A stretch of DNA of 64,000 nucleotides from NCBI GenBank assembly GCA_015178975.1, contig WHVD01000004.1, positions 1,426,001-1,490,000 on the forward strand, read 5' to 3'. A model generated the notes under the pieces. The model was not told where the DNA came from, made no database searches, and worked only from the letters and a program-made list of their open reading frames with translations. Made by a program: the position numbers and the translations under genes. The stretch comes from Hysterangium stoloniferum. Lineage: Eukaryota > Basidiomycota > Agaricomycetes > Hysterangiales > Hysterangiaceae. Below, in pieces: positions 32,813 to 57,418 of the stretch. The stretch's first letter is position 1; the number at the start of each line of letters is the position of its first letter.

Positions 32813-32933
32813 AAGCTGACTGGATCAAGTTTGATGTTCCTCCTGACATGTCTACCATTAGGTACCTCAGGTGTAGCTTTTGGAATGTAGTTGTCTGCTT
32901 CAGAGTCTGACTCCTCACAAGGAATTAGGTTGG

Positions 32934-33585
32934 CACTGGAGGAACCCCAAGATTTTTGGATTTGCAAAACCTTCAGAAAATCTTGCTATTTGGCCAAATT
33001 TACTAAGCATTCTTTGAACTGGAAAAACTGTTTGAAAATCTTGGGTTTTAGTAGGTTTTTCTGAGGAGAAAAATTGTATCTGAAAACCCTAAAAATGGTG
33101 ATCAGGAAATTCTAAGGAAACATTGTTGGAAATAGCCTATTTTCTGTGGATTTTCTAAATAGGAAAATTCTTAAAAAACCCTGGGTTTTGTTAGGGTTTT
33201 TCCACCCAACAGAATTCTATGAAAAATGTAATAATTTGCCTAGAGAAATCAATTGAAAACCACATATTTCTACTCAATTTTTCTGCTCAGGGAATTTGGT
33301 GAAAACTGTAATTTTTTGCCAGGAAAATCTTGTGCCAAGACAAAGTTTTGTTAATGTTTTGTCAAGGGGAAAACCATAATAAAATTGACAATTTAATTAT
33401 ATGGGAAATCATTGAATAATTATAGATTTCAATAAGATTTTCCTTGACCACAAACACTATGGAAATTCAAAAAATGTGTTGGTGAAATCTTGAAGAAATG
33501 AACAATTTCACATGAGTTTCTTAAAGGTTTTTCAAGATGAGAAACCTTGAACTGATTTTTCCTGATTGAGCATGATTCACAATTG
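32934..33585 (+). repeat. Left terminal inverted repeat of the foldback element
   Basis: Inverted copy of 36911-37567. The outer part has only scattered differences (for example GGAGGA versus GGAGGC). It contains several A-T-rich direct echoes of the kind aaaaccctaaaa and ttttctgag. No coding frame. Confidence 0.85.
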
Positions 33586-33609
33586 TTTGGAATGGTACAG
33601 TGGGATTCA

Positions 33610-34890
33610 CAAATATTTAAGAGGATTGTTTTAGATTCAGGTAGATTCTTTTAGATTCAGATAGATTCTTTTATATTCAGATAGATTCTTTGAGATTCAG
33701 ATAGATTCTTTTAGATTCACATAGATTCACATAGATTCACATAGATTCACATAGATTCACATAGATTCACATAGATTCAGATAGATTATTTTAGATTCTT
33801 TTAGATTCACATAGATTCACATAGATTCTTTTAGATTCTTTTAGATTCACATAGATTCACATAGATTCATTTAGATTCAGATAGATTCAGATAGATTCAG
33901 ATAGATTCAGATAGATTCTTTTAGATTCAGATAGATTCTGTTAGATTCAGATAGATTCAGATAGATTCAGATAGACTCTTTTAGATTCACATAGATTCAG
34001 AGAGATTCTTTTAGATTCTTTTAGATTCAGATAGATTCTTTTAGATTCAGATTGATTCTTTTAGATTCAGATAGATTCTTTTATATTCAGATAGATTCTT
34101 TTAGATTCACATAGATTCAGATAGATTCTTTTAGATTCAGATAGATTCTGTTAGATTCAGATAGATTCACATAGATTCAGATAGACTCTTTTAGATTCAC
34201 ATAGATTCCGATAGATTCTTTTAGATTCCGATAGATTCTTTTAGATTCTTTTAGATTCTTTTAGATTCTTTTAGATTCACATAGATTCAGATAGATTCTT
34301 TTAGATTCTTTTGGATTCACATAGATTCAGATTGATTCTTTTAGATTTACATAGATTCAGATAGATTCTTTTAGATTCTTTTAGATTCATATAGATTCAG
34401 ATAGATTCTTTGAGATTCAAATAGATTCTTTTAGATTCAGATAGATTCACATAGATTCAGATAGATTCACATAGATTCAGATAGATTCAGATAGATTCTC
34501 TTAGATTCATGTAGACTCTTTTAGATTCACATAGATTCTTTTAGATTCACATAGATTCAGATAGATTCTTTTAGATTCACATAGATTTAGATAGATTCTT
34601 TTAGATTCACATAGATTCAGATAGATTCTTTTAGATTCAAATAGATTCAAATAGATTCAGATAGTTTCTCTTAGATTCACATAGACTCTTTTAGATTCAG
34701 ATAGATTCAGATAGATTCTTTTAGATTCTTTTAGATTCTTTTAGATTCTTTTAGATTCAGATAGATTCTGTTAGATTCACATAGATTTAGATAGATTCTT
34801 TTAGATTCTTTTAGATTCAGATAGATTCTTTTAGATTCAGATAGATTCTTTTAGATTCAGATAGATTCAGATAGATTCAGATAGATTCTT
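33610..34890 (+). repeat. Decamer satellite array, left arm
   Basis: About 128 units of 10 bases, each agattc followed by a variable tetramer, mostly agat, acat or tttt. Units combine into mixed 20- and 30-base patterns. Point changes (agattccgat, agattcaaat) are scattered, so this arm is older or less homogenised than the right end of the other arm. Confidence 0.9.
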
Positions 34891-34911
34891 TTAGATTCAC
34901 CCTAAACCATA

Positions 34912-36910
34912 AAAAAATCTAAGAGAATCTATATATCTGAATCTATGTGAATCTAAAAGGATCTGTGTGAATCTATCTGAATCTATCTAAATCTATCTGA
35001 ATCTATTGGAATCTAAAAGAATGTATGTGAATCTAAAAGAATCTATCTGAATCTATGTGAATCTCAAAGAATCTATCTGAATCTATCTGAATCTAAAAGA
35101 GTCTATGTGAATCTAAGAGAATCTATCTGAATCTATGTGAATCTCAAAGAATCTATCTGAATCTATCAGAATCTAAAAGAGTCTATATCTGAATCTAAAA
35201 GAATCTATCTGAATCTATCTGAATCTATGTGAATATAAAAGAATCTATGTGAATCTAAAAGAATCTATCTGAATCTATGTGAATCTAAAAGAATCTATCT
35301 GAATCTATGTGAATCTAAAAGAATCTACCTGAATCTAAATGAATCTATCTGAATCTATCTGAATCTATCTGAATCTAAAAGAATCTATCTGAATCTACAA
35401 GAATCTACCTGAATCTAAAATAATCTATCTGAATCTATGTGAATCTAAAAGAATCTATCTGAATCTAACAGAATCTATCTGAATCTACAAGAATCTACCT
35501 GAATCTAAAATAATCTATCTGAATCTATGTGAATCTAAAAGAATTTATCTGCATCTATCTGAATCTAAAAGAATCTAAAAAAATCTATCCAAATCTATCT
35601 GAATCTATTGGAATCTAAAAGAATGTATGTGTATCTAAAAGAATCTATCTGAATCTACATGAATCTACCTGAATCTAAAAGAATCTATCTGAATCTATGT
35701 GAATCTAAAAGAATCTATGTGAATTTAAGAGAATCTATCTGAATCTAAAAGAATCTATTTGAATCTAAAAGCATCTACCTGAATCTAAAAGAATGTATGT
35801 GAATCTAAAAAATCTATCTGAATCTATCTGAATCTATCTGAATCTATCTGAATCTATCTGAATCTCAAAGAATCTATCTGAATCTAAAAGAATCTATCTG
35901 AATCTATGTGAATCTAAAAGAGTCTATGTGAATTTAAGAGAATCTATCTGAATCTAAGAGAATCTATTTGAATCTAAAAGAATCTATGTGAATCTATGTG
36001 AATCTAAAAGAATCTATGTGAATCTATGTGAATCTAAAAGAATCTATCTGAATCTATGTGAATCTAAAAGAGTCTGTCTGAATCTATGTGAATCTATCTG
36101 AATCTAACAGAATCTATCTGAATCTAAAAGAATCTATCTGAATCTACAAGAATCTAAAAGAATCTATCTGAATCTATGTGAATCTAAAAGAATCTATCTG
36201 AATCTATGTGAATCTAAAAGAATCTATCTGAATCTAAAAGAATCTAAAAGAATCTATCTGAATCTATGTGAATCTAAAAGAATCTATCTAAATCTATGTG
36301 AATCTAAAAGAATCTATCTGAATCTAAAAGAATCTATCTGAATCTAAAAGAATCTATCTGAATCTAAAAGAATCTATCTGAATCTAAAAGAATCTATCTG
36401 AATCTAAAAGAATCTATCTGAATCTAAAAGAATCTATCTGAATCTAAAAGAATCTATCTGAATCTAAAAGAATCTATCTGAATCTAAAAGAATCTATCTG
36501 AATCTAAAAGAATCTATCTGAATCTAAAAGAATCTATCTGAATCTAAAAGAATCTATCTGAATCTAAAAGAATCTATCTGAATCTAAAAGAATCTATCTG
36601 AATCTAAAAGAATCTATCTGAATCTAAAAGAATCTATCTGAATCTAAAAGAATCTATCTGAATCTAAAAGAATCTATCTGAATCTAAAAGAATCTATCTG
36701 AATCTAAAAGAATCTATCTGAATCTAAAAGAATCTATCTGAATCTAAAAGAATCTATCTGAATCTAAAAGAATCTATCTGAATCTAAAAGAATCTATCTG
36801 AATCTAAAAGAATCTATCTGAATCTAAAAGAATCTATCTGAATCTAAAAGAATCTATCTGAATCTAAAAGAATCTATCTGAATCTAAAAGAATCTATCTG
36901 AATCTAAAAT
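34912..36910 (-). repeat. Decamer satellite array, right arm
   Basis: About 200 units of the same decamers in reverse complement (gaatct with atct, atgt or aaaa). From 36301 to 36910 the array becomes a perfect run of the 20-mer aatctaaaagaatctatctg, about 30 copies without a single change. This arm is about 720 bases longer than the left arm. Confidence 0.9.
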
Positions 36911-37567
36911 CCAAACAATTGTGAATCATGCTCAATCAGGAAAAATCAGTTCAAGGTTTCTCATCTTGAAAAACCTTTAAGAAACTCATGTGAAATTGTT
37001 AATTTCTTCAAGATTTCACCAACATGTTTTTTGAATTTCCATAGTGTTTGTGGCCAAGGAAAATCTTATTGAAATCTATAATTATTCAATGATTTCCCAT
37101 ATAATTAAATTGTCAATTTCATTATGGTTTTCCCCTTGACAAAACATTAACAAAACTTTGTCTTGGCACAAGATTTTCCTCGCAAAAAACTACAATTTTC
37201 ACCCAATTCCCTGAGCAGAAAAATTGAGTAGAAATATGTGGTTTTCAATTGATTTCTCTAGGCAAATTATTACAGTTTTGAAAGAATTCTGTTGGGTGGA
37301 AAAACCCTAACAAAACCCAGGGTTTTTTAAGAATTTTCCTATTTAGAAAATCCACAGAAAATAGGCTATTTCCAACAATGTTTCCTTAGAATGTCCTGAT
37401 CAACATTTTTAGGGTTTTCAGATACAATTTTTGTCCTCAGAAAAACCTACTAAAACCCAAGATTTTTGAACAGTTTTTCCAGTTCAAAGAATGCTTAGCA
37501 AATTTGGCCAAATAGCAAGATTTTCTGAAGGTTTTGCAACTCCAAAAGTCTTGGGGTGCCTCCAGTG
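36911..37567 (-). repeat. Right terminal inverted repeat of the foldback element
   Basis: Inverted copy of 32934-33585, ending CCTCCAGTG next to the tgg target copy. Confidence 0.85.
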
Positions 37568-37570
37568 TGG

Positions 37571-40419
37571 GTAACTGTCCTGGGTCAAAGGGGAAGTCCT
37601 CCTCCTCCGATCCCTCTAACTCAGAGGGGTCTTCTATAATGTAGGTCTGACTTATTTCCTTATATCGGTTCACAAATACATCCTCATTGACAATGTCCTC
37701 AATGGTAGGAGGTTCAGATCACAATAAGGCTCCCATCTCAGTCAGACCTTTCCAGTTCTGACAATGAGCATCCAGCCAGTTTCCTTTCTCGAGGAAATCA
37801 CAGTCTGATCTAGAAACATAGACTTGTGATGCTTCGTTCTCATTTGAAGGTGAACTCACATCTAAAACAATGTCATCCTCTGATTGAGGAAGGTAGACAG
37901 AAATGAAAATCGTTTCCTTATCAATGTTATGTACTTGTCCCTGTATGCTTAATCCATAAACTGTTTCGTAAGCCCTCTGATCCTCCACCTCCTTGGTTGG
38001 GTTCTGTGTGGAGTGTTTGTTAATAGAGACATAGTGTGACATCCTACCCGCATGAGGGCAGTCAATCTTAAAATGCTCTAAACTCCTGCAAATCCAGCAC
38101 TCCTTCGGGGGTTTAGCGATGCTTTTCTTGTCACTTCGTTCAAAAAAGAACTTGCCATGTTTCTTACCCTGTTTCATATTAGATCTCCTAGGGATGGTTT
38201 TATCTTCAGCTTCGCTGAGGAAGACATGGCCTCAATTAGTGGGGTTGATTCCTCTGGAGTGTTCTTCCTCATGCCAGGGATCCGACTCTTCCTGTTCAGC
38301 GATCATGACTCTGGGCTTCTGAAACCGATAATGCTTTCGATGTGTTTGGACCCAAGCATTAATCAGAACCTCTTGTAGATTGTTAGCATAAGTCTGCAAG
38401 CTCATGATGTCATCGATGGGTTGTCCTTGTAGCAGGTAAAGCCATTCTGTGGGCAGCGTCAGGATGAGTCTGCACATTTCATCCTTTCTATTTTGGTGGA
38501 ACCCATACAAGAATCGATAAAGCTTAATTCTCCATTGAATGTAGTGAATGGGTGTTTCACAGTTATGGCCAGCTTGTTGAAATTTCATGGCTTCCCCATT
38601 CTAAGGCTAAGGATTCGCGCCAACAAGTTCCGAGTAATCCCTCTACAATGCCCCAAAGGAACGATCCATTAGATCGACTGAATTCAGTGTGATTTTCATG
38701 GTCCAGGGTGCTCCACCAGATCTTGGCATTGCCAGTGAGTCATCTTGGCAGAGTGACTCCTAACAATGTGCTCATGGAGTCTGATATCTCCAAGAGACTC
38801 ATGATATCCATGATGTAGTCCAAAGCCTTGGATTGAGTTCCATCGTATTCGGGAAGGTCAGACCACTTTATCTTGATGTCATTGGTGTTAAGAGCAATCT
38901 TTTTATCCTTAGGTAAGTCATCGATAAGCATGCTGGCTCGAGGCTGTGTCGGAGTTCAAAAGGGAGAGTTAGGTACTCCACCATGACGCCCCCCATGTCC
39001 TGAATTCCCTCCATAGTCTGAACTATTAGAACTCCCAGATGAACTGCTAGGGGGTCCTCCTGGTGGAAGAAAGGGATTTGAGGAGATCGGCAGGGAATGG
39101 TGGGGATCATCTGGATTCAGCGATCGTCAACCAGCAACCTGACCAGCTATACCCTCGGTGAATGCGGTAGAGAAGGACGGTCGACCCCTGTTGGTGACTG
39201 ATCAATTCCTAATCACGGGTTGTTCATTACCGAAGTTAGGATTATCCGAAATTCTTTTGAACGTGATGCGAGAGCGATGGATCCCCTGATGGGGCACAGG
39301 GCTGGGTTCTGTCACAATTTCTCTCTTGATTTCAATTGTATTCAAAGGCTGACGTGGCTGAGACTAATGGAAGGGAGTGCAGATTTCAATCCCCTTTTCC
39401 TGAAGACGATCTGCAACTTGCATCCTCATATCCAACAGGAAGTCTTGCAAAATGACAGGACGATTGAGCAAATGGAGGAAACAAGTATAAGGAGACCCAT
39501 TTAGGTTGCAAACAAACAAATTAGTCATGGAGATAGGTGAATCGGGCACTTGAATCGAATTATTATATGTAAGGGTAAAGCACCTCCAAAACCATTTTAT
39601 CAAGCCTCCTCTGATTTCGCTTCAACCGGCCCCTTAGAGTAAAGTATGTAAACAATAGATTTGGCGTGACTCCATTAAGAGATTCCTCCAACATTCGGAT
39701 GTACATATACTGGTAGTCAATCTTGGGCACGATATGATCCCCACTGAGTAGGATGTGAAGGATTTGCAGCACATCATCATGTGTGCAAGCGCTTCGAGGA
39801 ATAAAGAGAACACCTCCTGCCTAAAAATTGTCCTTCCCCCTTCCATAATGGATGTAACATCACTCGACCATTCGGGAATCGAGTGTGTCAGATCCTCAAG
39901 GGTTCCTGGTCACCTGAATAAGTCCTGCACCGATAAGATGGCCTGATAATGACCTAACCAGACTGCTACAGTCACTGGTAAAGAAGGGTAATCCGTATCA
40001 TACTCCTCCATGAAAGGAGTAAGCTGATCAGTGGAGATTCGATCAGCATAGTACATGTCCCATTTCACATCGATAGGCTCAGTGTAAACCATATGACCCC
40101 CAAGGAACTGCTTGAGGATGACCTGCCTTGGTGGGAATGAGAGAATGGGCTCAGGTGCACGGGTAGGCTTGACATTAGCTCCAGGGGTGCTCAACTGCCT
40201 GGTTGATGGATGTTCCTCATGTGGATCAGGGGGAGTATCCGTCGACAGTCCAGCTGCTGCTCTGGGGGAATTCCCAGGAGGGGCTGGTCTTTGAAAAGTC
40301 AATGAAGACTTCCTCATGGTGACATTATGGGGTGGTTCCAGATCAGCAGGTCTTTGATGAGGTTTTGAACTACTCAGTGTTGTTGAAGATCTCGGCATTT
40401 GGTTTTTGCCAGTGGTCAT
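37571..40419 (-). pseudogene. Gypsy gag
   Basis: Minus strand from an ATG at 40419. Frames in order: a proline-rich N terminus to about 39910, helical text to about 39360, KWSDLPEYDGTQSKALDYI (near 38860), ETPIHYIQWRIKLYRFLYG and LILTLPTEWLYLLQG (38540-38430), and a CCHC zinc knuckle CWICRSLEHFKIDC (about 38105-38065). A linker then runs to DPGQLPT, where the foldback element is inserted. Several frameshifts and stops. At roughly 900 codons before the insertion it is long for a gypsy gag. Confidence 0.75.
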
Positions 40420-41964: not shown

Positions 41965-42969
41965 TCATAAGTTGTAATACAACAACGGTTTAGACTCCTC
42001 ATATGCTGCTTCCGACGCAGACGGACCCTTCGTGCTGTCGACTAGCTTCCGAAATTCGCCGCGTGTGCTTGCACAGGGACGCCGCAGAACATGAAGCTGC
42101 CAATGAAGGGGCAGCCAGCCCGAATTTTCCCAATCTATAATTCCGCTCAATCGACCGTCCTTAACGAGAATGTTGTGGCTTCGAAGGTCGGCGTGCACAC
42201 ATACAATGGTGTCGGACATAATGGTCTGGGAAGCGTTGGGCTGTAGCTCCTTGAGCTCCTCCACAGAATCGGATAGGTGACGAGACAGATGGACGAAGCA
42301 CTCCAGGATATTGTCAAAAGGACCCTCGCGGTCCTCAAAGAAGAAAACCGGACTTGGCATACCATGGCCGCTTGCACTAAGCATGACCTTGCCTGCGTCT
42401 TTCTCGGGCTGAGGGAGAGTCCAGAGACTACGGAGGACCGTGAAGACGTCTTCAACGATGAGGCGCATGTCTTTATCTGACGTCGTGTCAAGTTTATCAA
42501 TAAGCAGATCTCCGTCAATCCTCGTCATCACAGTGAATGTATTTCCGCCCACAACAAAGCTATCAACGATGCGAGGTATTGGCAAACGAAGACCGCAACT
42601 GTTGAGGAATCGCAAAGCATCAGCTTCGGTGCCGATGGTTCCTATCGAGCATTTCAACACCAGAGGAATGCCAAATTTGAAATAGCGAATGTTGTGAAAA
42701 CCTGTCGCTGTGGATAGGAAACGGTATACGGAGAGTCGGATGTGGTTCAAGGGCAGTAGTAATAAAGATCGAAGACGCTGTAACATTGCGATGCTGTTCG
42801 GCTTCCTCACGTGCGATTCTCGGCTCAATCCGTAAAGGCGCGCAAATGGTGCATCACGCCTAGTCACTGGGGACCCACCGCTACTTTTGTACAATAGAAA
42901 TAGTCGATTCACCTTTTTCTTATTCCTTGCGTAGAAATATTCCTTTGAGCAATGCAGACTCATCCTCAC
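41965..42969 (-). CDS. Aminoglycoside phosphotransferase (APH)-fold kinase
   Basis: A single open frame of up to 334 codons. The catalytic loop HADLRSHN (residues 259-266) gives the H-x-D-x4-N pattern of APH-family kinases, and IIDWEN (277-282) is the metal-binding loop. GWLPLHWQLHV follows, where fungal members usually have GWxPExWE. The N-terminal lobe contains LVLKCSIGTIGTEADALRFL, with a lysine expected to contact ATP. The first ~60 residues are basic and may be 5' untranslated; the Met at residue 62 (MLQRLRSLL) is a plausible start. Such genes are numerous in basidiomycetes and their substrates are unknown, so it should not be read as drug resistance. It is isolated between the two transposon nests. 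No intron is needed. Confidence 0.8.
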   Translation of the reverse strand: MRMSLHCSKEYFYARNKKKVNRLFLLYKSSGGSPVTRRDAPFARLYGLSRESHVRKPNSIAMLQRLRSLLLLPLNHIRLSVYRFLSTATGFHNIRYFKFGIPLVLKCSIGTIGTEADALRFLNSCGLRLPIPRIVDSFVVGGNTFTVMTRIDGDLLIDKLDTTSDKDMRLIVEDVFTVLRSLWTLPQPEKDAGKVMLSASGHGMPSPVFFFEDREGPFDNILECFVHLSRHLSDSVEELKELQPNASQTIMSDTIVCVHADLRSHNILVKDGRLSGIIDWENSGWLPLHWQLHVLRRPCASTRGEFRKLVDSTKGPSASEAAYEESKPLLYYNL

Positions 42970-46274: not shown

Positions 46275-47077
46275 TCAAGTGCGTAAAATATAAGCACTCC
46301 CTGCACTATCAGTGGGGATCTCCTGGTTTTCGGTAGGTAATCCACTTGAAGACGAAACAACCGGCCTCGGCGCGGGACAAAAACGCGCAATGTGACCTTC
46401 GCCGTTGCATCTATAGCAATTCTTCGGCTGTCGCATATTTGGTGAGTCAACTTTCATTTTCATGGCAATTTGACTCTCATTTTCTTTCCGCCCTTTTAGA
46501 TGGCTTTCTTCTTCTACCAGCGCCGCGGAAATTTCTTCGACTGTAAGTGATCCCACACGCTGCATAAGAGCAGTTGCTACCGCACCAAATTCCGGAGCCA
46601 AACAATAGATGAGGACATCCGGCACATCCTCATCATGTAACTCGACTCCAATCGCTCGAAGCTGCGAAGCTGCGAAGCCACAGTCAAAATGCCATGGACA
46701 TATTCCATCACTGGATTTTTGACATCGTGCTGGTACATATAGAGCTGGCGTTTCAACAAAATCCGATTGGCCCGATTATTTGCCTGATAGATTTTTGCAA
46801 GTGCTTGCCATGCCTCTGGTCCAGTGGTGCAATCCCGAATATATGATTGTTGGCTTGACGCGATTGTCAATCCAATTGCCGTGTAACCATCCTCCGAATG
46901 CTTTGCCCAATCCAAATACTCCTTGCTATTCTCATCCTTAGGTGCCTTTCTTCCACCATTAACAACACTCCATGATCCAGCATGCCGCAAAACCATTGAC
47001 AGTGAAAACTTCCATTCGTGGTAGTTATCACCCGAGAGTTTTGGGATACTCGCAAGTAAGGCATTGATATTAGACAT
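46275..47077 (-). pseudogene. Copia gag of the mini-retrotransposon (one frameshift)
   Basis: ATG at 47077 (MSNINALLASIPKLSGDNYHEWKF), then GPEAWQALAKIYQANNRANR and LYMYQHDVKNPVMEYV, the standard copia gag (UBN2-type) layout. The C-terminal half in another frame has SLTVEEISAALVEEE and the zinc knuckle CYRCNGEGHIARFC (CX2CX4HX4C). The frame shift comes from a direct 8-base duplication (tgcgaagc at 46663-46670 and 46671-46678). Everything else is open, so the gene was disabled recently or the shift is a sequencing or assembly error. About 265 codons. Confidence 0.85.
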
Positions 47078-47122
47078 AAGATGATGAGATAGTATTAGTG
47101 TGACTTTTAAAGCAACGGGGCG

Positions 47123-47134
47123 GGGCCCATAACC
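47123..47134 (-). promoter_or_regulatory. Primer-binding site (initiator tRNA-Met anticodon arm)
   Basis: GGTTATGGGCCC on the minus strand, immediately 3' of the 5' LTR. The complement GGGCCCATAACC is the anticodon-arm sequence of eukaryotic initiator tRNA-Met (CAT anticodon). Confidence 0.8.
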
Positions 47135-48607
47135 TGTTTGATGACAGCGTAAGGAAAACGGACAAGGTTTATGTACGATGACTAAGCTACTGTAAAGTAC
47201 GAAATAGCCGAGCGTAAAACGCATCAATGGCTTGCAATACAACGTAATCTAACACAGACTGAGGTGGCCATACCATGACAATAAATCCATTGTCTTTGAA
47301 CCAATTAATGGCCTTTGTGCTCTTGTGTTTGGTATCATTGGCCTGCTGAAAGACCACATCTTCTGTGTTCTTGCTATAATACTCCACAGTTGCTTGAAGT
47401 TCATCTTCCAAAATGCTACCATAAAGGTCAGCATCCATTCTCCCATTAATCTTGGTGGAATATCCTGGGCCTTTCCACAATGTACAGCTCCACAACATCA
47501 GATTTCCTCCCCCAAACCTGACCGTGCCCTTCAGCCTACCACTGAGCCCCTCTCCTGCCCTTTTCCATATCTAATTCCTCCCATATGACCCCAAACAATT
47601 GATTTTTGTCTCATCTGACCAAACAACCCTCTTCCAATCATCCACAGTCAAGTCCTTGTGTGCCAGAGTAAAGTCCATTCTTGCCTTCCTATACAGGTAC
47701 CTCTTATTGAGTAAAGGCCTTTTTCTCTTCACCATAGCCCTCATTTCAGCCTTCTTGAATGCCCTATGAACAGTCTAACTGAAATAGACTCTCCAGTCAT
47801 ATCTTGAATGGTTTGGTGACCTCAGTGGCATGTTCAGCCTTTTGAGAAGTGATTTGTTGAATAGAATAATGAATATCTGAGGAGGAAAGCTGGCATAAAC
47901 AGCCACCAGATGAGTTGGCAAGTGATGAGCAATGGGTAGAATGAATTCTGGATATAGTGGACAGATCATGGCCAGTGATTTCAGAGATCTGAGGAGCAGA
48001 CTTGCCCTTATTGAGAAAAGTGAGAATATGGCTAAGCTGAGGAGGAGTAAGAGCCTTCATGGTGTAGAATGTTGAGCTATGGGGATGTTTTTGGATTGCA
48101 AAGTAAACAGATGTATATATATATAATTTTGACAGGTCAAATGATTTTTATTTGCACTTATTTGCATATAAACAATATGGTTATATGTTAATCATGTGAC
48201 AGGGACAAAACCCTTCCAATGCAGTTTAATTGGTATTTTATTTATAGTGTGGGAAATACTGATGCTCATGTAATAATACTTTAAGGGTAAATAGACAACA
48301 TATAGACCTAACCACTCCCAAAATATTAGGTCTGTAGCTACAGTGGTTCTTGAGTTATTCAAGAATCTTTGCACAACTAGAAATCATTGGAAGGGTTTTG
48401 TCCCTCACTGTATATCCTTGATAACTCAGAGGATAAAATTGCAAAATTATCAAAATTATTTGTGAATATGCTCTATCATATCTAGATTGTTGAAATACAA
48501 TGCATTACATAAGCTCCAAATATAAAAATACTACAAATATATATATACAGGAGACTCATTGGAAGGGTTTTTTGGCTGACAACTCTGACCCACAAAACTA
48601 CTTATAT

Positions 48608-53582: not shown

Positions 53583-56500
53583 TGTTAGGACTGGAAACCC
53601 AACTGGGCTCTGGAACCCATCCTATATGTGCCTGACTGTTTATATTGTACCCAAGGTACAGTTACAACTGGAGTACCTGCCAGGACCCGCAAATCACCCT
53701 ATATGCACCAGTTGTCGGACTCTGCCGGACCTACATATCAACCTGTCTATATCTGACACTGTGTCTCATGCACCAGTCTTCAGACTCTGCTGGACCCACA
53801 CAACAACCTGTTTATACACAACTCTCTGTGCCCATCACTGGACTCCAACCAGACTCCCAGAACCCCTCTCACAGAGCATAGAACCCTGCTCCTGCAGTCG
53901 TTGGACTCCACCAGACCCACATGTCAACTTGTCTGTATCCAACACTGTGTCTCATGCACCAGTCCTTGGACTCTGCCAGACCTGCACATCAACCTGTTTA
54001 TACCCAACACTCTGTGCCTGTCACTGGTATCCAACCAGACTCCCAGAATCCCTCTAACAGGGCATAGAACCCTGCTCCTGTTATGGTCTAATAACCTGTC
54101 TAGTTTGTTCTCCACTTCCATTCTGTCCCATCCTAAATTCCCAGTTTAGTATTTACTTGTTTCGTGTTATGTTTAATTGTTCTGCCCCTCATCATTACCA
54201 GATTTGGTATTATTACATTTCAAAGTCTATATAAGTCTTCCATACTCATGTACTTACTCTCTAGTTTCAATCTCAAACTAGTTACACCCCAAATATGTCC
54301 TGATCCAGTCTCTGGTCCTCTTGTCTGCCTGCATGCTTGATTCCCAGAACTTCCTTGGGAACTCCAGAATCTACATTTTCCTTGTAGGCATTTTGTCAGC
54401 TCAAAGTATGGACACCTGAATGAGTGTACAATGGTGCAGCACATAAGCTGAAGCCAAGTCCATCTCAGCCCTCTGGTAATTATTCTGATACACTCCTTGT
54501 ACTAATCCCTAGAAACTCCCTGGACTATTACCTGGGAACTCCACAGGACATCCCTGGAAAGTGTTCGCAATAATTACTGGAAACCTCTGTGGGTCTCAAG
54601 GAGAGATCCTTGTGTTTTGGAACTTAACAGTAGGGAGGTTGTCTGTAATATCAGATGTTTACTGGTAAAATTTATATTTCTACAAAACTCCATCTTTAAA
54701 TAGCAATATATCCTCTGAGACTATTATATTGTTAACTACCAACCATAAGAAATAATTCTCCATATTACATCCTAAACAATTCAGAGTCAATTAATAGAAC
54801 CTATTGTATATGGTTTTCCAAGTTATGTAAATACTTGCCAATACTTTTGTTGTTAATTTGTTTTTTAAAAGCTAAACTGTAGTTATTTCCTAGTAAAATA
54901 TGTGATATATAATTGGAAATTTTTCATCCTATGGCCTTCTTTATTAAGTGAAATCACCTATATATTCTGGGTATGTTGAATCAAGTAGAAATCTGTTCAG
55001 ATTGACAGATCCATTCCAAAGTAATACATATGTATTTAGAGGTGCCAATGATATACATGTGCATGGAATGGACTATCTAAAGGTATCTAATTTTTAAAAG
55101 TATTAGTGTTTCAAACTACTAATTATTTTTATTGTCTACTTGTGTCCAGAAAGATTCTTTAGTTTGTAATGTACGAGAGAGTTTGAAACTTTTTGAAAGT
55201 TTTAAAAATTAAATTATGTTTGAATCACATCCCAGATGTTCAAATGACCTTTAGAGTATATTAGAATTTGGTATACTTAATAGTTTTCAGACAGATATTC
55301 TCCTAGATTGAAACTGCAACTTGTCACTCATTTACCTTATCTGACACCATGTTGTAATTTCCCCATTCACAGTTCTACATTGGCATCACATTACTTATAT
55401 TTTACAGAATTGCTTGTGTTTCAGACTTCATTCAGAATTCCAGATGCAGAGATAAGTCAATGGCTGAAGCTGATCCCATTTTACTCAGATCCACTCTTTT
55501 GTCCTGCCCCTGGTTTGCTTGGCTCCTGATTGTTTCCGGATTTTCTAGATAGGTTATTTCGCTACTAGTCAACATATTGTCGGATTTCCACTGGCCTCTG
55601 GAATTGCACTCTGTCTGCCAGTTACCTTGATGGTATAATATGGATCCAAGTGTGCAATGTGTTGATCACCTTGTACTTGGTTTTCTTTACAGATAAACCT
55701 CCAAAAACATTTCTCATAATTCCAAATTGACATTGCCTTGCTTACCCTCATCATCTGCCTTGTCATTGGACATTTTCTGGGTCCCAGGCCCATTTCCAAA
55801 CCTTTTGTTTGGAGCCTTTTCTGACCCCACTATCTGGCCCACACCTGTCCAGTGCATGTTCCCTGTCATCTCCCAGGTTTTCCCAGCCCCCACAGACTTT
55901 TCCAAGTCCTCTCTACCCTTCTGCATTGATTCCTACAATGACCCACCAGACTCTGGATATCTGGAACCCTCCAAATATCTGGAACCCTCCAAATATCTGG
56001 AACCCTCCAGCACTCCAGGTCAGAAAGATTCTTGCAGTTCCTGTATGTTGTCAGCTTTTGCAACCTGGATACACTCCAAACTGTGACTTGCTTTCTGGTT
56101 CCCTTCTGGGACATTTTCTGGGTCTTTTCAGTTTCTCTGAGGAGCATTTATTTGTTTCCTTTGTGGAAAAAATCTGGACATCACCTTGACAAGTCGCTTG
56201 GCATTTATAGGACACCACTGGCCCACTCACTATAAATCTGTTGATTTCTATCAAACAGTAAATTTTCCAGAATTTCCGATGCCCCTTATTTGACTGTATT
56301 GTCTGCTCTGAGTCTTTTCAGACTTCCCTGGCCCGAACAGCACCTGCAGCTTCAGTGGCCCCTGTGATCCTCTATGGCATCCATGACCTTTTCAGGCATC
56401 CATGGCTTTTTTAAGCACCCTTGACCTTTCTGGCACCTGTGGCCTCTATGGCCCCTGTGACCCCTATGGCATCTCTGGCCTTCAGGCAACCCATGGCCCT

Positions 56501-57418
56501 TCTGGGCATCTCTGGCCTTTTCAGCATCTCTGGTCTTTTGGCTTTCAACTCTTTCTCTTAATTTCGGATTCCATGGATATTTCTGAACTTTCCAGAACCC
56601 TCGGAATTGGACCCTTCAGATTCTTTGCATTTCTGGACTTTCTGGACTTTCCAGACCATTTGTATCCTACCTATTTGTTGAGTGTTTGTTTGCTGAGATC
56701 AGTTAATCCAGCTTTTCAGGCATTTTTTGGCCTTTGGGCAACCCTCAGCCCCACCCCTGCCTTCTTTTGGCAATCCTGGCCTCTTTTGGCAATCATACCC
56801 GACTCTCTGTGCCCATCATACCCAACTCTCTGTGCCCATCACCAGACTCCAACCAGACTCCCAGAACCCCTCTCACAGAGCATAGAACCCTGCTCCTGCA
56901 GTTGTTGGACTCCACCAGACCCACATGTCAACCTGTCTATATCTGAGACTGTGTCTCATGCACCAGTCCTTGGACTCTGCCAGACCCACACATCAACCTG
57001 TTTATACCCAACTCTCTGTTCCTGTCACCAGACTCTGACTGGACTCCCAGAACCCCTCTAACAGAGCATAGAACCCCACTCCTGTTATGGTCTAATGACC
57101 TGTCTAGTTTGTTCTCCACTTCTGTTCTATCCCATCCTGACTTCCCAGTTTAGTATTTACTTGTTTCATTTTATGTTTAATTGTTCTGCCCCTCATCATT
57201 ACCAGATTTGGTATTATTCCTGAATGAGTGTATGAGGGTGCAGCACATAAGCTGAAGCCAAGTCCATCTCTCAGTACCTCTGGTAATTATTCTGACACTC
57301 CTTGTACTAATCCCTGGAAACTCCCCAGACTAATTACCCAGGGACTCCATGGGACATTCCCAGAAAGTGTTCAGAATAATTACCTGAAACCTCTGTGGGA
57401 CTTCCTCAGAACTTAACA
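53583..57418 (+). mobile_element. Non-autonomous LTR element of the TGTTAGGACC family
   Basis: 5' LTR 53583-54629 (TGTTAGGACTGG to AACTTAACA) and a 3' LTR, truncated at its 5' side, from about 56793 to 57418 (ending CAGAACTTAACA). Flanks are gggag (53578-53582) and ggggg (57419-57423), a target duplication with one change. The gypsy integrase reads on across it. The interior (54630-56792) holds MITE copy B next to the 5' LTR and then C/T-rich text with short direct repeats, including three copies of an 18-base ctggaaccctccaaatat unit (about 55959-56012). No retroviral domain is recognised. This is the only copy of the family here with two LTRs. Confidence 0.65.
54635..55303. mobile_element. 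669-base MITE, copy B (inverted relative to A)
   Basis: GAGGTTGTCTGTAATATCAG at the left and ...GATATTCTCC at the right: the reverse complement of 51174-51842 with few differences. A target duplication is not clear (gtagg versus ctaga). A and B together form an inverted repeat of about 3.5 kb separation. Confidence 0.7.

Follow-up and report, generated by a model that had tools for sequence, protein, structure and literature searches.

Structure of the element in the window

What is a DNA element whose interior consists of a 10-bp satellite that changes strand at its centre, and what moves it? This question is raised by a locus of Hysterangium stoloniferum in the window, the whole stretch of 64,000 nucleotides of contig WHVD01000004.1 that was analysed. 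An earlier note had placed an element with CACTG ends and a TGG duplication at 32934-37567, and ends, duplication and coordinates proved exact: the outer ends are CACTGGAGG...CCTCCAGTG, with the TGG target duplication on both sides. Its features, in window positions, are as follows.

32931..32933, no strand: left copy of the target duplication, TGG, from the sequence of the flank
32934..33591, plus strand: left inverted arm, 658 bp, starting CACTGGAGG, with several AAGATTT/AAATCTT motifs (from counts in one arm of copy L009)
33592..33632, plus strand: inner transition from left arm to array, a ~38-bp stretch of which is missing from the right arm
33633..34898, plus strand: left decamer array, AGATTC + AGAT/TTTT/ACAT, from unit counts
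34898..34920, plus strand: centre spacer CACCCTAAACCATAAAAAAATCT, where the array strand flips; 37 genome-wide matches at <=2 mismatches
34921..36909, minus strand: right decamer array, AGATTC-type unit inverted, from unit counts
36299-36909: perfect 20-bp tandem repeat, 611 bp, inner to the right arm and forming the last part of the right array
36910..37567, minus strand: right inverted arm, 658 bp, finishing CCTCCAGTG
37568..37570, no strand: right copy of the target duplication, TGG, from the sequence of the flank
32834..37670, no strand: element with 100 bp of flank per side; once joined, these flanks align across the join with 40 scored places elsewhere

The inverted termini, put at ~650 bases beforehand, form an ungapped inverted match over 658 bp with 637/658 positions identical; the ~38-bp inner stretch missing from the right arm is present in most arms. 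The decamer unit is AGATTC followed by a tail, chiefly AGAT, TTTT or ACAT. The left array contains 113 exact AGATTC and 0 GAATCT, while the right contains 176 exact GAATCT and 0 AGATTC, in agreement with the strand flip that had been described at the centre, and the switch takes place in a ~20-bp spacer within 34898-34920. The claim that the whole 4.6 kb can fold back was borne out in part. With the right half reverse-complemented, the left half aligned to it at 1872 identical and 93 mismatched positions, with 684 gap positions, and the predicted RNA fold of the native sequence alone paired 85.5% of the bases, with 1840 of 1982 pairs spanning the centre; however, the arrays are unequal (left ~1.3 kb, right ~2.0 kb), which leaves ~0.7 kb on the right unpaired. 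The units of one array pair with those of the other, yet neither array is a mirror copy: of the 10-unit stretches counted, each containing three or more unit types, 0 are common to both. None of the 14 listed window ORFs of at least 150 aa overlaps the element, and the satellite is, as the note had it, the only cargo seen. Because the junction, centre and satellite patterns described below had 0 control matches, the structure is more than chance, and the window element is confirmed as a real foldback structure.

Elsewhere in the window, Pfam matches identified a Copia-type gag at 46577-47242 (minus strand) and an APH-family phosphotransferase at 41965-42969 (minus strand). Related tandem repeats with periods of 186 bp and 65 bp, having a CTCCACCAGACCCACA-type motif in common, lie at 53709-54080 and 56905-57031.

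Further copies and their insertion sites

The genome searched comprised 111 Mb in 554 contigs. A homology search with the terminal 367 bp yielded 458 candidate matches, the best 40 of which were scored, and the 20 loci retrieved from those 40 are accordingly biased to young copies. Full copies with both ends were present at 19 of the 20 loci; the other, L016, is one-ended and stops after ~20 units. The window element and these 19 loci make up 20 two-ended copies, all of which have CACTGGAGG-type ends and an exact 3-bp target duplication of variable sequence (CTA, CTT, AAA x4, TCA, TGA, TAA x2, CAG, ACT, TCG, TTC, TTT, TGT, TTA x2, CCA and TGG). The earlier note had taken the element for a transposable one on its CACTG ends and 3-base duplication, and had proposed a search for further copies with their duplications; the 19 full copies agree with it, and deviating ends or absent 3-bp duplications, two of the findings it had named as contrary, were looked for among them and not found.

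Array order was forward then reverse in 20/20 copies, once inserts in the arrays of L012 and L024 were set aside. The insert in L024, at ~1189-2005 of the oriented copy, has the look of a solo LTR (TG...CA) with CAGAT on both sides, and that in L012, running from before 1700 to ~2670 of the oriented copy, is unrelated sequence. Both had been considered as remnants of a coding interior, of which they gave no sign.

The window flanks joined with a single TGG were used as a 200-bp query, and 277 candidates were obtained. The 40 scored had identities of 88-94%; the join is covered in every one of them, and 37 extend over 195 bases or more, with small indels occurring. Since the joined flanks match many sites across the join, the window element was inserted into repeated host sequence, and on sequence grounds the matching repeats elsewhere represent empty sites without the insertion. 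The repeated host sequence is probably an LTR retroelement, judging by the look of the neighbouring ORFs; no Pfam domain was found in the two ORFs nearest the element.

Genome-wide counts and small relatives

We counted elements by a pattern for the arm-array junction, which recognises 36/40 known arms. It gave 92 matches (46+46) and 0 in the control, resolving into 41 convergent pairs and 10 singles and thus at least 51 elements, with paired junctions 1.0-6.2 kb apart. There were no same-strand junctions less than 10 kb apart, and the sole divergent pair within 10 kb sits between two neighbouring elements on C80. Five of the single junctions belong to copies with two known ends (the window element, L019, L020, L023 and C334:955424-960748), one is L016 and four are others. 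The centre spacer, whose control count was 0, had 33 of its matches within junction pairs and the other 4 where a single junction was detected; it is present in 15 of the 20 two-ended copies and missing from 5.

The spacing from end to junction was 639-688 bases for 31 of 32 listed left ends, with modes at 685 (the commonest) and 654. The 32nd, on C114, has a spacing of 1063, which is 378 above 685 or 409 above 654, and a MITE-type end lies inside the stretch. On the 378 reading, and judged from spacing alone, the extra length would fit a ~375-bp element plus a 3-bp duplication.

MITEs are small, a few hundred bp long. The earlier note had called the element unlike ordinary MITEs, which holds for the 20 two-ended copies, with lengths of 3350-7542 bp, but family ends also occur on MITE-sized intervals. 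The 19-base terminus at <=2 mismatches had 452 matches (control 10), a count that mixes families, and a related terminus with AAGG for AAGA had 472 (control 0), partly overlapping the 452. A copy number based on the 452 termini was dropped, as it also counted ends of a ~374-bp class differing by one base, and the junction count was used instead. Pairing by hand, from the 100 listed of the 472 related-terminus matches and five other ends, gave 25 intervals and left 55 of the 100 unpaired; 19 intervals were 360-380 bp long and the rest 141, 867, 912, 914, 1194 and 1202 bp. The ~374-bp MITE-sized class thus has family ends, as known from terminus spacing. A CACTGGAGGCAYCCCAAGG end is common to this class and to the intervals of ~0.9 and ~1.2 kb, and intervals with it were observed on C1, C46, C51, C65, C155, C346, C399, C476, C511, C514, C522, C533 and C549. 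The intervals with this end are probably moved by the same transposase as the foldback family.

Divergence of the arms and turnover of the arrays

We compared each arm with its partner and with the arms of other copies. In 16/20 copies the partner arms differ at 16-26 of ~664 positions, and each arm is matched more closely by one in another copy (0-19 differences) than by its partner, which points to a founder element whose arms would already have diverged. The remaining four copies showed 1, 1, 5 and 8 differences. In L022 and L025 the partner arms differ at 1/664 each and the nearest arms in other copies by 4-6, and these are clear cases in which one arm overwrote the other. The arms of L018 are a mosaic; L019 has two left-like arms, yet its centre and the inner edge of its array are typical.

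Array lengths, taken as assembled, can change while the arms stay unchanged. L010 and L011 show 0 substitutions across the 1328 bp of their two arms but are 214 array units apart, and L010 and L017 have 2 arm substitutions and are 128 units apart. Over 136 pairs (L012, L024 and L019 left out), array difference rose weakly with arm difference (Spearman 0.21), and array length change is therefore not independent of age.

Unit order and composition were counted with L012 and L024 left out. Within one element the two arrays shared 0.034 of their 10-unit stretches; opposite arrays taken from different elements shared 0.009, and same-side arrays 0.021 and 0.034 (controls <=0.0006). In 8 of 18 elements, the window element included, the two arrays share 0 such stretches. 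Unit order thus seems to tell a story similar to that of the arms, but a weak one. The sharing of 0.23 between the two arrays of L025 fits recent copying, against 0.018 in L022, where copying would not have extended into the array.

The ratio of observed to expected CpG was 0.04 in arms and arrays compared with 0.41 in flanks, and that of TpG/CpA was 1.29 in arms, 1.20 in flanks and 0.89 in arrays. Because TpG/CpA in the arrays is below that in the flanks, deamination alone does not account for their scarcity of CpG. Derivation of the decamer from the arm, as in Tetris, found no support: the local alignment score of 17 was reached by 82% of 300 shuffles, and no likeness was detected. As a candidate for the short subterminal repeats of CACTA/EnSpm elements, the motif AAGATTT, chosen post hoc from repeated 10-mers, occurs 6 times in one arm (L009), compared with a mean of 0.65 in 1000 shuffles, none of which reached 6.

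Mobilization and superfamily placement

All 20 two-ended copies have CACTG-type ends, in keeping with the CACTA/CACTG termini of CACTA/EnSpm elements, and a target duplication of exactly 3 bp, within the 2-3 bp of that superfamily. The usual CACTA inverted repeats are far shorter than the ~658-bp arms seen here. The features of Foldback elements were also found: long inverted arms with short tandem repeats and little or no loop in 20/20 copies, 41 convergent junction pairs, and array lengths that vary between arms and copies. Of 68 Plavaka, 71 KDZ and 12 Transposase_21 matches and 29 to a 468-aa EnSpm-like protein, none was placed inside the family termini listed (100 of 452; 100 of 472), and superfamily membership therefore rests on ends and duplication length, by which the family probably belongs to CACTA/EnSpm. 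The kinship with CACTA/EnSpm suggested by the earlier note is upheld to that extent, but not by a transposase within the listed termini.

We consider it likely that the family consists of non-autonomous DNA transposons of CACTA/EnSpm type with Foldback architecture, moved in trans. Each element would be made of two inverted arms with a centre of 0 to ~20 bp between them, each arm having a terminal domain of ~650-690 bp and an inward decamer array. A transposase presumably encoded elsewhere would cut at CACTG...CAGTG and insert the element with the 3-bp duplication observed. The changes in array length described above may come about by slippage or unequal exchange, and the overwriting of one arm by the other, seen occasionally, through inverted-repeat-directed repair. 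The array itself is most likely amplified arm filler, tolerated by the element, and may strengthen the binding of the transposase. Arrays that bind transposase secondarily are conceivable by analogy with Galileo; the decamer has no detectable likeness to the terminal domain.

A bolder idea, which we regard as rather unlikely, is that the array is remade at each move, with excision, gap repair or hairpin synthesis resetting its length, so that the element would act as a transposition-coupled satellite generator. Strict inward orientation and near-CpG-free sequence would then be kept for end pairing, transposase binding or escape from CpG methylation.

The mover might also be a Plavaka, KDZ or other transposase, from the wider CMC group or beyond. 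The genome contains 68 Plavaka and 71 KDZ domain matches, and the duplications of Plavaka-B are 2 or 3 bp in the part of PMC12730594 compared here. The same source, however, gives CATCA..TGATG ends for Plavaka-B, TGT..ACA for Plavaka-A and 8-bp duplications for Zisupton, and describes fungal EnSpm by CAC..GTG and 3 bp; of these, the family ends fit EnSpm, and we find such a mover improbable. A Mutator- or P-type Foldback, like Tetris, Tm1 and Galileo, with the CACTG ends coincidental, seems more improbable still. It would share the architecture of long, internally repetitive, unequal arms with no gene seen, and foldbacks mostly seem to be Mutator members in the part of PMC4079207 consulted, but long duplications (8-10 bp in Tetris; 8-10, mostly 9, bp in Tm1) contrast with exactly 3 bp in 20/20 copies.

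Three loci were noted in the course of this comparison. L042 (C339:11642-13045) is a 468-aa open frame of EnSpm-like Transposase_21 with 28 other genome matches, mostly partial or with stops. At C442:348569-360523, facing family termini lie 12 kb apart, and a 1-kb sample inspected by eye was GC-rich and decamer-free. A candidate 17-kb autonomous element at C205 was rejected because its right end proved to be paired with a further terminus, at a distance of 912 bp.

Confinement of the satellite

The exact satellite 36-mer had 314 genome matches and 0 in the control. All 100 positions listed lie in or beside elements, 96 between paired termini and 4 next to a single terminus on C74, and these four are enclosed by two facing junctions. 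The 100 listed of the 314 matches thus included no free decamer array outside elements, and the suggestion that the element is a source of dispersed free arrays did not hold at these positions. The highly variable length of the arrays would suit a satellite that spreads by itself and captured transposon ends by chance; the absence of free arrays among the positions listed, together with 33/37 centre-spacer matches inside junction pairs, makes this very unlikely. An assembly artefact, in which fold-back chimeric reads produced the inverted arms, could be read into the near-identical arms of L022 and L025, but we dismiss it almost entirely in view of partner arms that differ by 16-26 of ~664 and are each better matched in another copy (16/20 copies), matching 3-bp duplications at both ends within different flanks, and facing junctions at 41 places.

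Significance and comparison with known systems

Non-autonomous CACTA/EnSpm-type elements with Foldback architecture thus remain the preferred reading. If the transposase is of CACTA type, one more superfamily would have given rise to the Foldback architecture, in a host other than those mentioned in the compared parts of the papers (PMC4079207 and others). This would support the published idea, given in PMC4079207 with reference to Marzo et al. 2008, that separate lineages may produce foldbacks independently through transposase loss and arm elongation. Near-identical copies inserted at different places make it possible to measure how fast and by what route the satellite array changes relative to arm substitutions. 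The family also offers natural inverted satellites of ~1-6 kb, useful for studies of hairpin stability, dsRNA and rearrangement breakpoints.

The comparisons below extend as far as the consulted portions of each paper. Tm1 of root-knot nematodes (PMC3169594), a Mutator/Foldback element with duplications of 8-10, mostly 9, bp, resembles the family in its composite, inverted, unequal arms, its variable numbers of a short tandem unit (13-15 bp in Tm1) and its MITE-like relatives. Tm1 has other ends and, in some copies, a Phantom-like transposase, whereas the Hysterangium family has a 10-bp unit, arrays that fill nearly the whole interior and a 3-bp duplication. Tetris/DAIBAM of the Drosophila virilis group (PMC4079207) is likewise a foldback that seems to be non-autonomous. 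Each of its arms combines a flanking domain with a tandem-repeat domain, a MITE has the same ends, and the autonomous partner is also not known. Tetris differs in its ~220-bp units, middle domain, 8-10-bp duplications and free satellite arrays, and its repeat has a 37-bp stretch in common with the terminal domain, of which no counterpart was found here. Galileo of Drosophila (PMC3573991), formerly filed as Foldback-like, shares long internally repetitive arms, independent arm change and exchange between copies, and the tandem repeats of at least one Galileo are reported to contain secondary binding sites for the transposase; however, it belongs to the P superfamily, has ~210-bp units in group F and has known transposase-bearing relatives.

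Two CACTA elements were also compared. CNIRT6 (PMC12810828), an active CACTA of the basidiomycete Cryptococcus neoformans, agrees with the family in its CACTG ends and in 3-bp duplications of variable sequence, but its full length is ~7.5 kb, its inverted repeats are 24 bp long and it has a predicted transposase, and the consulted part of the paper mentions no satellite. Jozin of Chenopodium (PMC8978399) is a CACTA-like element with a satellite array, but the unit is 171 bp, the array lies near the 3' end by the coding region, and no foldback is described in the portion compared. We found no CACTA-type or fungal foldback, nor a paper joining Foldback architecture with CACTA ends, in the open-licence literature. 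Tm1, Galileo and Tetris are known examples of foldbacks whose arms contain tandem repeats, and what appears to be new in the Hysterangium family is the combination of such arms with CACTA-type ends and a fungal host.
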